This document shows positions 17,904-22,189 of a stretch of DNA of 64,000 bases, piece after piece (the first letter of the stretch is position 1; each line of letters begins with the position of its first letter). Made by a program: the position numbers and the translations under genes. The DNA comes from Algicola sp. (GTDB lineage Bacteria > Bacteroidota > Bacteroidia > Flavobacteriales > Flavobacteriaceae). Under the pieces are notes generated by a model. The model was not told where the DNA came from and ran no database searches. It saw only the letters and a list, made by a program, of their open reading frames with translations. Where the stretch lies: assembly GCA_018222915.1 (NCBI GenBank), contig JAAEZI010000001.1, positions 77,082 to 141,081 of the forward strand, written 5' to 3'.

Positions 17904-18038
17904 TTCGGAAAAGTTTGAAATAATTTATGAACACTACACAAGTATTAAGGTGTTTTTCAAAGGCTTTCTAATCGTTCATTTGTATCAATTTTAATAAAGA
18001 ATAATGACCTCTTTTTATTCGATTATATGGTAATCGTA

Positions 18039-20222
18039 ATGAAAAATGTATGTGCTTTTTTATGTCTTTTTACACTCTCAATGAGTGTGTTTTCACAAGA
18101 AAAACAACAAGACTCCACAAAAACGGAGAAGTTAGATGAAGTTTTGGTAAAGGCTGTAAGGGTAGAGGCGACATCACCCATCACCCATACAAACGTGACC
18201 AAAAAGCAATTGGCAAAACGTAATCTCGGACAGGATATTCCGGTGCTGTTAAATTATTTGCCTTCTGTAGTAACGACTACTGATGCTGGTGCAGGTGTCG
18301 GTTATACTGGTATTCGAGTTCGAGGGATTAATGCTCAATCAACAAATGTGACGATCAATGGAATTCCTTACAACGATGCCGAATCTTTAGGGACGTTTTG
18401 GGTAAATTTAGGTGATTTTGCGTCATCTGTTGAAAGTTTACAACTGCAGCGAGGTGTTGGGACATCCACCAATGGATCTGGAGCGTTTGGTGCCAGTTTC
18501 AACGTGCTAACTGATGCTGTTGCAAAAGACGCTAGTGGTGAAATATCAAATTCTTTCGGAAGTTTTAATACGCGGAAACATACGGTGAAATTTAGTACCG
18601 GATTATTAAACGAACACTTTGAAATAGCAGGTCGCTTGTCCAATATTGCTTCCGACGGTTATATCGACAGGGCAGAAACGGATTTAAAATCTTATTTCCT
18701 GCAAGGGTCTTATGTTGACGATAATACGTTAATTAAGGCTATTGCCTTTGGTGGTAAGGAGGTGACGTATCAAGCCTGGAATGGTATCGATGCTCAAACA
18801 CTCATTGATGATCGAACATTTAATCCTTCAGGTATCTATACGGATGCCAATGGAAACACGCAGTTTTACGACAATGAAGTTGATAATTATAATCAAGACC
18901 ACTACCAATTACATTGGAATCAGCGCTATAATAATCAATGGTCTACAAATGTAGGCTTAAACTACACTTATGGTCGTGGTTATTTCGAGCAGTATCGTGA
19001 GGATGAAGCTTTTGAAGATTATGATCTGACACCCTTGGAAATCGGAACTGAAACTATTAATACGACAGATCTCATAAGACGTCGTTGGTTGGATAACGAC
19101 TACTTCGTGGTCAATACGAATGCGAATTATAAAAACGACAAGATAAATATGATTTTTGGTACATCTTACAGTTTTTATGATGGGGATCATTTTGGTGAAA
19201 TTATATGGGCGGAATTTGCGAGTGACAGTCAGATTAGAGATCGTTATTATGAAGGCAATGGCAAAAAGTCTGATTTGAGCTTTTTTACAAAGGCAACTTA
19301 TAGAGTTAGTGATAAGGTTAGTTTGTATGGGGATTTACAAATGCGATTAGTTGGTTACAAGACTTCGGGATTAACGTCAGATAGAATTCCTTTTAATGTA
19401 GATGAAAACTACAGTTTCTTTAATCCGAAAGCAGGAATCACCTACAAATTGAACTCACAAAATAGTTTGTATTTTTCTTATGCACGTGCTAACAGAGAAC
19501 CGAATCGGGATGATTTTCAAAACAACGCCACAGTAAAACCTGAACAGCTGAACGATTTTGAATTGGGTTGGAGGCACGATGCTGAAACGTTTAGATTGTA
19601 TGTGAATGGCTATTATATGCTTTACAATGAACAATTGGTTCTCACAGGTCAAATAGATAATGTTGGAAATCCTATTAGAACCAATAGTGGTGATAGTTAT
19701 CGTTTAGGACTTGAGATAGATGCGGCTGTGGCTGTTTCCAAAAGTTTTTCTGTGCAGCCTAACCTTACTGTAAGTTCTAATAAAAATAAGCAAACGTTTA
19801 ATTCAGTTAATGGAGAATTGGAGAACTTGGGTAAAACAGATATTTCCTTTTCACCAGAATTGATTGCTGCCAATGCTTTCGTTTATCAACCTAAAGAAGG
19901 CTTTCAACTATCGCTTTTAAGCAAATTTGTAGGTGAGCAATTTATGGGTAATACAGAAAACCCTGATTCAAAACTGGAAAGCTATTTTGTCAATGATTTT
20001 AATGTCACGTATGAATGGAAAACCAACGCTGTTTTTGAGTCTGTTGTTTTTACCGGATTAGTGAATAATATTTTCAACGAAAAATATGTCTCTAATGGTT
20101 ATTTTGGGTCCTTTGATTTTGAGGATTCAGAGAGCCCTACAGGAATTACAACCGGCTATTTTACCGGCTATTACCCTCAAGCAACAACTAACTTTTTGTT
20201 AGGTGTGACCCTAAAGTTTTAG
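18039..20222 (+). CDS. TonB-dependent receptor, probably for thiamine or its precursors
   Basis: Outer-membrane active transporter. A signal peptide (MKNVCAFLCLFTLSMSVFSQ) is followed by a plug domain (LPSVVTTTDAGAGVGYTGIRVRG near residues 70-95; NGIPYNDAESLGTFWVNLGD) and a 22-strand-type barrel ending in an aromatic residue (GVTLKF). The C-terminal RANREPNRDDF and LVNNIFNEKYVSNGYFG motifs are typical. ATG 18039 is chosen because the signal peptide begins there; ATG 18027 would add four residues. The TPP riboswitch immediately upstream defines the substrate class by regulation. Energised by TonB encoded elsewhere. Confidence 0.93.
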   Translation: MKNVCAFLCLFTLSMSVFSQEKQQDSTKTEKLDEVLVKAVRVEATSPITHTNVTKKQLAKRNLGQDIPVLLNYLPSVVTTTDAGAGVGYTGIRVRGINAQSTNVTINGIPYNDAESLGTFWVNLGDFASSVESLQLQRGVGTSTNGSGAFGASFNVLTDAVAKDASGEISNSFGSFNTRKHTVKFSTGLLNEHFEIAGRLSNIASDGYIDRAETDLKSYFLQGSYVDDNTLIKAIAFGGKEVTYQAWNGIDAQTLIDDRTFNPSGIYTDANGNTQFYDNEVDNYNQDHYQLHWNQRYNNQWSTNVGLNYTYGRGYFEQYREDEAFEDYDLTPLEIGTETINTTDLIRRRWLDNDYFVVNTNANYKNDKINMIFGTSYSFYDGDHFGEIIWAEFASDSQIRDRYYEGNGKKSDLSFFTKATYRVSDKVSLYGDLQMRLVGYKTSGLTSDRIPFNVDENYSFFNPKAGITYKLNSQNSLYFSYARANREPNRDDFQNNATVKPEQLNDFELGWRHDAETFRLYVNGYYMLYNEQLVLTGQIDNVGNPIRTNSGDSYRLGLEIDAAVAVSKSFSVQPNLTVSSNKNKQTFNSVNGELENLGKTDISFSPELIAANAFVYQPKEGFQLSLLSKFVGEQFMGNTENPDSKLESYFVNDFNVTYEWKTNAVFESVVFTGLVNNIFNEKYVSNGYFGSFDFEDSESPTGITTGYFTGYYPQATTNFLLGVTLKF

Positions 20223-20289: not shown

Positions 20290-20715
20290 TTAATTGCTAA
20301 TGGTTAAATTGTTTCCAGAGACCGTCACGCGGTATTCCTTGAGTCCACAAGGGAGTGGGTCGTTTAAGGCTTGTCCTGTATAAAGATTGTATTCATTCTC
20401 GTCTGCACAACCACAGGTGACATTTATACCGTCAATCTCTAAAAAAGAACAACTTGAAGGTGCGTGATTAGGGTCGCTGGCATCCCAAGCTCTGAAATTA
20501 CCATTACCTACATTGGTGACGTAAACGCCTTGGTTGCCTTGGTTAGGAACATAAACCGTATTGCTCGTGAACATTAATTGACTGTATTGTGGCAAATTGA
20601 GATTTAGGGTGAAATTGACACCTATATTTAATAAGAAATTACAGTTGTTGATGTTGTCATTGCCACCGCAATTTGTTAATAATAAGAGGTATAAGACACA
20701 AGTAAGTCTTTTCAT
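20290..20715 (-). CDS. Rieske-fold-like lipoprotein lacking histidine ligands
   Basis: Starting at 20715 gives the lipoprotein signal MKRLTCVLYLLLLTNCGG (lipobox cysteine 16); the open frame extends 48 codons upstream through a region containing the greA promoter, so the longer start is unlikely. The C-terminal half (SCSFLEIDGINVTCGCADE, then NEYNLYTGQALNDPLPCGL and KEYRVTVSGNNLTIS) follows the Rieske C-terminal layout. However, the second ligand motif C-P-x-H-G reads C-G-C-A-D here, so the histidine is missing. No [2Fe-2S] cluster of the normal kind can form; the four cysteines may pair as disulfides. Function unknown. 141 residues. Confidence 0.75.
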   Translation of the reverse strand: MKRLTCVLYLLLLTNCGGNDNINNCNFLLNIGVNFTLNLNLPQYSQLMFTSNTVYVPNQGNQGVYVTNVGNGNFRAWDASDPNHAPSSCSFLEIDGINVTCGCADENEYNLYTGQALNDPLPCGLKEYRVTVSGNNLTISN

Positions 20716-20883: not shown

Positions 20884-21357
20884 ATGAGTAAAGTATCTTA
20901 TTATACTCCTGAAGGATTAAAAAAATTAAGAGACGAGTTGCGACAACTCAAAGATATTGAACGCCCAAAGGCATCGCAAGCAATTGCCGAAGCAAGAGAC
21001 AAAGGTGATTTAAGTGAAAATGCTGAATACGATGCAGCGAAGGAAGCTCAAGGCTTATTAGAAATGAAAATTTCTAAATTAGAAGAAACTTTATCTGGCG
21101 CGCGTGTGATTGACGAGTCTCAAATGGATACATCCAAAGTACTCGTGTTATCTAAAGTGAAAATTAAGAATCAAACCAATGGCATGGAGGTGACCTACAC
21201 ATTGGTCGCTGATGGCGAAGCTGACTTGGCATCAGGAAAAATTTCTGTTAACTCGCCAATAGGAAAAGGGCTTTTAGGAAAATCGGTAGGTGAAGTAGCC
21301 GAGGTTCAAGTGCCTAATGGTGTCATGAAATTTGATATTTTGGAAATAAGTAGGTAG
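20884..21357 (+). CDS. greA: Transcription elongation factor GreA
   Basis: Stimulates transcript cleavage in backtracked RNA polymerase. The N-terminal coiled coil carries the catalytic acidic tip (ARDKGDLSENAEYDAAKEAQG near residues 38-58, with the D and E that coordinate Mg). The C-terminal FKBP-like domain ends with SPIGKGLLGKSVGEVAEVQVPNG. 157 residues, full length, ATG start. Followed by a terminator. Confidence 0.97.
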   Translation: MSKVSYYTPEGLKKLRDELRQLKDIERPKASQAIAEARDKGDLSENAEYDAAKEAQGLLEMKISKLEETLSGARVIDESQMDTSKVLVLSKVKIKNQTNGMEVTYTLVADGEADLASGKISVNSPIGKGLLGKSVGEVAEVQVPNGVMKFDILEISR

Positions 21358-21835: not shown

Positions 21836-22189
21836 TTATAGCTTTATAACACCACTAACAAAAAGTAACACGACAACTATGAGAATAGCATCGGCTATGA
21901 TGATGAACCAAGCTAGTTGCTTTAATTTAAATGATTGTGGCTTGTGTTGCACTGCACGTTGTTGATAGGCTACCACTTGCTCAATGTCATCCGTCCAACG
22001 TACAGGAAAAATGTCAGTATGACAAGTGTTGCAATGCATTTCGTTGATAACATTATTGGTAATGGCTTTGTATAAAGCATTCTCCTTAAATCCTTGCCTA
22101 AAGGTCAATTGCAGCCCGTCATTCGAATAGCACTCCGGACAATTATTGTTGAGTTGTACCTCCTTTAATGTAAAATACTGTTGCTCCAT
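21836..22189 (-). CDS. Small zinc-ribbon protein with C-terminal membrane helix
   Basis: 117 residues. Two CxxC pairs, CPEC near 18-21 and CNTC near 53-56, form a probable zinc ribbon. The C-terminal segment (LAWFIIIADAILIVVVLLFVSGV, split around 90-114) is a single membrane helix, so this is a tail-anchored cytoplasmic protein. It lies 9 bp downstream of a histidine kinase on the same strand and is probably co-transcribed, which makes a regulatory or sensory link conceivable. Family not recognised. Confidence 0.75.
   Translation of the reverse strand: MEQQYFTLKEVQLNNNCPECYSNDGLQLTFRQGFKENALYKAITNNVINEMHCNTCHTDIFPVRWTDDIEQVVAYQQRAVQHKPQSFKLKQLAWFIIIADAILIVVVLLFVSGVIKL

Follow-up and report, generated by a model that had tools for sequence, protein, structure and literature searches.

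A flavobacterial lipoprotein family with a predicted Rieske fold and altered cluster-ligand positions

What becomes of a Rieske scaffold when most of the residues that would hold its [2Fe-2S] cluster have been replaced? The question is raised by a small lipoprotein gene in a 64,000-nucleotide stretch of Algicola sp. DNA (the window, meaning the whole stretch analysed here). Its product scores under every Pfam and NCBIfam cut-off, and it belongs to a protein family that is near-universal in Flavobacteriaceae. A literature search, short on subscription journals, found no paper on this family.

The lipoprotein gene and its predicted fold

The coding sequence (141 amino acids plus stop) occupies positions 20290-20715 of the minus strand, with the stop codon at 20290-20292, and is backed by its translation (MKRLTCVLYLLLLTNC, GGND...ISN) and by relatives. 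A program-made list of open reading frames starts it at a TTG 48 codons upstream, giving a 189-residue version that is mechanical; the ATG at 20715 is preferred because it yields a lipoprotein signal and agrees with the relatives. From this ATG, a signal peptide and lipobox (L-T-N-C16) span residues 1-16 (20668-20715, minus strand), as expected of the lipoprotein that a preliminary description had called. By a simple home-made rule, 246 of the 249 distinct family members have a lipobox-like Cys; the 249 are what remains of 256 members (some from genomes sampled by two tools) once identical proteins are removed and near-duplicates kept. Two adjacent acidic residues shortly after the lipobox Cys are described as the feature of the Bacteroidota export signal in the accessible portion of PMC5080379. 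At +2 to +6, 192 of the 246 lipobox members have any acidic residue and 79 have two adjacent ones; a consistent surface-export signal is not seen across the family.

A contig search returns 26 related loci, mostly from Psychroserpens, Gelidibacter and other Flavobacteriaceae, and the family gene is present in 195 of 199 Flavobacteriaceae genomes, as a single match in all but two. These counts, and the fact that the best structure matches are Rieske proteins, argue that the gene is not a chance reading frame. A profile search of the order, scoring the best 20 or fewer candidates per genome, finds the gene in at least 125 of 196 genomes; this count is too low, since all 20 checked genomes that first scored negative and have the ~1,240-residue protein gene described below carry a family member beside it. 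A draw across the phylum, scoring the best 13 or fewer candidates per genome, gives at least 44 of 296 genomes (30 Flavobacteriaceae, 6 from another family of the order and 8 from other orders).

The window protein alone matches 0 Pfam families at E ≤ 10, and so neither PF00355 nor PF13806. Against NCBIfam its best match, to a Rieske ferredoxin subunit model at 0.023, lies far under that model's cut-off, and against solved structures phmmer gives chance-level matches (a cilia protein at 0.1, the NirD-like 3c0d at 0.16). Among relatives, the PF00355 cut-off is passed by one of the eight scanned (L177), PF00355 appears at E ≤ 0.1 in 7 of 33, and PF13806 (NirD / Rieske_2) is matched by 3 of the 33, at best at 0.043. 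Profiles built from many members reach further: one of 76 (the window protein and 75 representatives) finds CarAc among solved structures at 0.001, and a profile made from 33 hand-picked, aligned relatives picks up CarAc (2.8e-4) and PetC3 (6.9e-4).

The AlphaFold model of the window protein, made from 25 aligned sequences (its own and those of 24 of the 26 related loci), has a pLDDT of 86.9 and a pTM of 0.77, and its Rieske-like fold covers residues 31-141. Foldseek against the PDB returns 26 matches at E ≤ 0.001, all of them Rieske ferredoxins or complexes containing one, or a Rieske protein or NirD. VIA-align places kuste4569 first (9rk4; Z 10.3, 2.5 A over 95 residues) and also matches PetC3 (5cxm; Z 10.2, 2.7 A over 96 residues); the titles of the 50 matches listed are all those of Rieske-fold proteins or complexes including one. 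Together, model and profiles support a predicted Rieske fold. The preliminary description had named structure prediction against Rieske domains as its own test, and the fold came out Rieske; the YNLYTG and LKEYRVTV motifs from which it read a Rieske-like layout are present, and its repurposed Rieske scaffold gains support from the model, the Foldseek and VIA-align matches and the profile. A PF00355 search of the window's own genome gives nothing at 1e-3, so an ordinary Rieske protein is not seen there.

Ligand positions and cysteine pairs

The window protein shares its fold and two-loop layout with the Rieske [2Fe-2S] proteins (PF00355; CarAc, T4moC, PetC3, kuste4569), but differs from them in being a lipoprotein, in leaving PF00355 unmatched and in having three of the four ligand positions changed. 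In the profile alignment, the Rieske ligands Cys-x-His...Cys-x-x-His fall on Asp81-Pro-Asn83-His84 in loop 1 (20464-20475, minus strand) and on Cys101-Gly-Cys103-Ala104 in loop 2, which with Asp105 takes up 20401-20415 (minus strand). Cys101 is the sole Rieske ligand still in place. The C-G-C-A-D that had been reported in place of C-P-x-H-G is thus Cys101-Asp105, and the reported loss of the ligand His is right for the second loop, where it is Ala104, and too narrow for the site, where Asp81 replaces the first Cys and Asn83 the C+2 His.

The register above is that of the alignments to CarAc and T4moC, in which His84 directly follows the place of the usual His. A gap-free alignment to PetC3 instead puts the ligand Cys at position 84 and the His at 86. 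Because these alignments differ over loop 1, its register is less certain than the register of loop 2; in either case loop 1 has neither a ligand Cys nor the usual His. The disulfide Cys lies eight residues on from the first ligand position in loop 1 of the window protein, and five in the C-T-H-N-G-C of PetC3.

How widely is this change shared? Position 81 is Asp in 124 of the 249 distinct members, Cys in 109, Ala in 11 and Ser in 5; distant members may be misplaced in these counts, as the columns were read after adding sequences to the 76-sequence alignment (the window protein and 75 of 102 representatives). L159 was scored as Asp81 though an outlier, and L168 was left out, being no longer matched by the second profile. 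The alignment of homologues at the ligand positions, also proposed earlier as a check, finds the canonical C-x-H...C-x-x-H in 0 of the 249. Four members (L144, L147, L148, L152) have C-x-x-H...C-x-x-H, and His104 is confined to them. Cys101 is nearly invariant, at 90% or more in the 76-sequence alignment. The distance from C-x-C to the next aromatic residue is 5-6 residues in 108 of the 112 Asp81 members scored (of 124) and 4 residues in 90 of the 92 Cys81 members scored (of 109).

A separate class (L085, L126, L128-L130, L141, L142, L183, L184) has A-P-H in loop 1 and C-P-[KEQ]-D in loop 2. It lacks the first Cys as well as both inter-loop Cys, and has a His in the C+2 place and, two places after that His, an extra Cys.

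The remaining cysteines come in pairs. Besides Cys6 of the signal peptide and Cys16 of the lipobox, the window protein has five (25, 89, 101, 103, 123), the higher of the "four or five" given earlier. Cys89 (20449-20451, minus strand) and Cys103 are both present in 237 of the 249 members, both absent in 11 and present singly in 1. In the 33-relative profile they align with the two extra Cys of the PetC3 motifs C-T-H-N-G-C and C-P-C-H, which makes them presumed mates and, at the level of sequence, the counterpart of the inter-loop Cys pair of bc1/b6f-type Rieske proteins. Cys25 (20641-20643, minus strand) and Cys123 (20347-20349, minus strand), likewise presumed mates from their co-conservation, are both present in 79 members, both absent in 167 and present singly in 3; all 79 belong to the Asp81 class (79 of 124), with 0 of 109 in the Cys81 class. 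The idea of a scaffold held by disulfides thereby gains indirect backing, in that, across the 249 sequences, the two members of a presumed Cys pair are retained or disappear together.

A different linkage ties His84 to Cys101. Within the Asp81 class (n = 124), 113 members have both, 10 have neither, 1 has His84 alone and none has Cys101 alone; in the Cys81 class, Cys101 is present in 108 of 109 and His84 in 57 of 109. Among all 120 pairs of 16 well but incompletely conserved columns of the Asp81 class, His84-Cys101 ranks first with a phi of 0.95, followed by Cys101-Asp105 (0.58) and His84-Asp105 (0.53), with the remaining pairs at 0.32 or less. An Asp81-class tree made without the tested columns has 9 changes of His84 and 10 of Cys101, with agreement in all six of its supported independent pairs (median p 0.031 in a sign test); run in the other direction, six of seven pairs agree and one is without difference. 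On a tree of all classes, four of four supported pairs agree (p 0.125). For Asp105 against Cys101, about 5 of 7-8 supported pairs on the Asp81-class tree agree (median p 0.06), and Asp105 appears to covary with His84 and Cys101 more weakly than those two do with each other.

The plain reading of these alignments is that Cys101 accompanies Cys81 or His84 and that, with both gone, Cys101 is usually gone too. The exceptions are eleven Ala81 members that keep Cys101 and one Ser81 member, most of which have other Cys arrangements. We infer that Cys81-Cys101 may be a disulfide, and His84-Cys101 a metal site or a hydrogen bond. As read from the sequences, the loss and replacement of Rieske site residues is ordered.

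Neighbouring genes

In the window, the gene lies between a TonB-dependent receptor gene and the gene for the transcription elongation factor GreA. The receptor (18027-20222, plus strand; PF00593 at 1.4e-22, PF07715 at 8.9e-11) has a Plug and a barrel domain, is convergent with the lipoprotein gene and is a candidate partner only. GreA (20884-21357, plus strand, identified by Pfam) is divergent, and its synteny is conserved in Flavobacteriaceae: a homologue is found in 127 of 185 loci and a HIT protein behind it in 125 of the 185, a set that includes some genomes sampled by two tools. Among the 124 loci with GreA directly upstream and any downstream gene, 89 have a homologue of the window receptor directly downstream, in every case on the opposite strand. 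This convergent arrangement is weak evidence of shared function, as the receptor sits in a conserved block with GreA and HIT. There are 29 Plug matches in total in the window's genome.

A 117-residue protein also lies nearby (21836-22189, minus strand). It carries two CxxC motifs and is hydrophobic in a segment near its C-terminus; it matches nothing in Pfam at 0.001 or in NCBIfam at 1e-5, and has a homologue in 60 of the 185 loci.

In seven other Flavobacteriales families, the family gene is divergent from the gene for a ~1,240-residue Plug-domain protein. Where both genes were located, 62 of 64 genomes have them divergent and 91-296 bases apart; the two exceptions are one divergent pair at 2.2 kb and one with the genes on different contigs. 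A further 24 genomes have the ~1,240-residue gene and no family match, and of these 20 were checked and four left out. All 20 carry an opposite-strand family member upstream of the ~1,240-residue gene, one of them, in L270, broken off early. The ~1,240-residue protein of L147 (4661-8347) has CarboxypepD_reg and Plug domains and no recognised barrel model. At 33 of 33 such loci the two genes lie on opposite strands, and identity to the L147 protein is 35-80% across the remaining 32. On the other flank of the pair the genes vary more, with some conservation there too: the largest cluster at +1 is found in 14 of 33 loci, and one cluster, of adenosylhomocysteinase type, at +1 or +2 in 19 of 33. 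The gene next to the ~1,240-residue gene is adenosylhomocysteinase in L132 and encodes ATP synthase subunits in L147. That the neighbour might be PorU with GldJ next to it, as in type IX secretion, was rejected for the loci scanned, given the CarboxypepD_reg and Plug domains in L147 and the next genes just named. That the lipoprotein might be a known subunit of the Bacteroidota BAM complex was also set aside, on a comparison by text: the word "Rieske" occurs 0 times in the accessible portion of each of the two 2025 structure papers.

Does the lipoprotein need this neighbour? Scoring the best three candidates per genome, at least 88 genomes of the order have the ~1,240-residue protein at E ≤ 1e-60, and of the 125 genomes in which the family gene was found, 61 fall outside those 88, including 30 of 30 Flavobacteriaceae. 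The window's own genome, with all 33 candidates scored for a full-length homologue, gives N-terminal matches only. That particular partner therefore looks dispensable to the lipoprotein.

What the scaffold might do

Evolution seems to have put an electron-transfer scaffold to new use at the cell envelope, as most of the cluster residues are lost and many relatives adjoin an outer-membrane receptor gene. The best explanation, with a probability of about one half, is that a Rieske scaffold has lost its cluster, is cross-linked by disulfides and serves an outer-membrane receptor. The window protein would then carry no Rieske [2Fe-2S] cluster. A Cys89-Cys103 disulfide would hold the two former cluster loops together, Cys25-Cys123 would tie the N-terminal segment to the body of the protein, and Cys101, its Cys81 partner gone, would be shielded by His84 or bonded through it. 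In Rieske proteins the cluster tip is the docking end; here it may have become the surface that docks onto, or covers, an outer-membrane receptor of the Plug-domain or TonB-dependent kind. Outside Flavobacteriaceae, relatives show a strong pairing of lipoprotein and receptor genes. For the window protein a different receptor would have to be the partner, perhaps the one encoded convergently at 18027-20222.

Lipoproteins that serve receptors have precedents: the SusD, BtuG and HmuY types are receptor-associated outer-membrane lipoproteins. There too, a lipoprotein gene lies beside a gene for an outer-membrane Plug-domain protein. The window protein differs from them in its Rieske fold, in a gene that is divergent or convergent and not in one operon with the receptor gene, and in being known here from its gene neighbourhood. 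NirD (Rieske_2, PF13806) offers another comparison, as a cytoplasmic subunit of nitrite reductase and one of the Rieske-fold subunits known without ligands. The window protein likewise has a predicted Rieske fold with ligands lost, and the NirD structures 3c0d and 4aiv are among its Foldseek matches. Unlike NirD, it has a signal peptide and paired Cys, and no nitrite reductase is found among the identified window neighbours (GreA, HIT and the receptor). In the accessible portion of PMC3475470, one Bacillus NirD has two substituted ligand residues; given the NirD precedent, a clusterless Rieske fold is not new as such.

Could the old cluster site hold something else? It may, though this is somewhat unlikely, have turned into a mononuclear metal site whose putative ligands are Asp81, His84, Cys101 and Asp105; a different metal was one of the options in the preliminary description. 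The joint loss of His84 and Cys101, the place of Asp105 next in the covariation list and the longer loop 2 of the Asp81 class (5-6 against 4 residues) would fit such a site. That the loops can hold a single metal after ligand change is indicated by the accessible portion of PMC2946596, in which a designed three-residue change in an archaeal Rieske protein (ARF) gives a mononuclear Fe(Cys)4 site. The ARF triple mutant is, however, designed and has four Cys ligands, whereas the Asp, His, Cys and Asp of the window protein are proposed only. Against the site, the gene is retained in the ten Asp81 members without both His84 and Cys101, Asp105 is missing in seven other members that have both, and the tree agreement of Asp105 with Cys101 is partial. 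An extended form, in which the lipoprotein would hand over or guard a metal or metal complex for the Plug-domain receptor and these loops would contain a disulfide or some other metal in the Cys81 class, is unlikely. Alternatively, Cys101 with His84, and perhaps Asp81, could be a thiol redox or catalytic site, as Cys101 of the Asp81 class has no obvious Cys partner (the other four Cys of the window protein forming two co-conserved pairs) and goes along with His84. This is improbable: the tree shows about nine losses of His84 and Cys101 in lineages that keep the protein, and Cys101 of the Cys81 class would instead have Cys81 or a metal as its partner. A [2Fe-2S] or similar cluster still bound through unusual ligands is the least probable by far, with one of four usual ligands left in the window protein and His104 in four members only, even if Cys101 is nearly invariant, His84 is one place off the usual His and the four relatives with C-x-x-H...C-x-x-H come close.

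The receptor partner raises a doubt of its own. Near-universality in Flavobacteriaceae, where the ~1,240-residue partner does not turn up in the genomes scored, together with GreA and HIT, which are general housekeeping neighbours, would suit an envelope housekeeping lipoprotein with incidental neighbours and no receptor partner. This is rather unlikely, as divergent pairs over seven families (62 of 64 and 20 of 20 genomes) and the more changeable gene on the other side are hard to square with it. Service to a receptor stays the preferred reading, and the pairing with an outer-membrane Plug-domain protein offers a direct experimental route to the role.

What is new is a lipoprotein family, outside Pfam and NCBIfam cut-offs, that combines ordered site replacement with a receptor-type neighbour. 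The family forms a natural series of iron-sulfur site dismantling and replacement, with many states side by side: Cys or Asp at one ligand, joint loss of His and Cys, and an added Cys pair in one class.

Some smaller features of the family are worth recording. The two genomes with a second family match elsewhere are G208 (L166) and G278 (L167), the latter copy lying inside a longer reading frame. L020, from a metagenome bin labelled Chlorobiota, has a copy 61% identical in the Flavobacteriaceae gene order (GreA, HIT, receptor) and is perhaps a mislabelled contig. The last residue of the window protein is Asn141 (20293-20295, minus strand), and a terminal Asn without a tail is found in 233 of the 249 distinct members.
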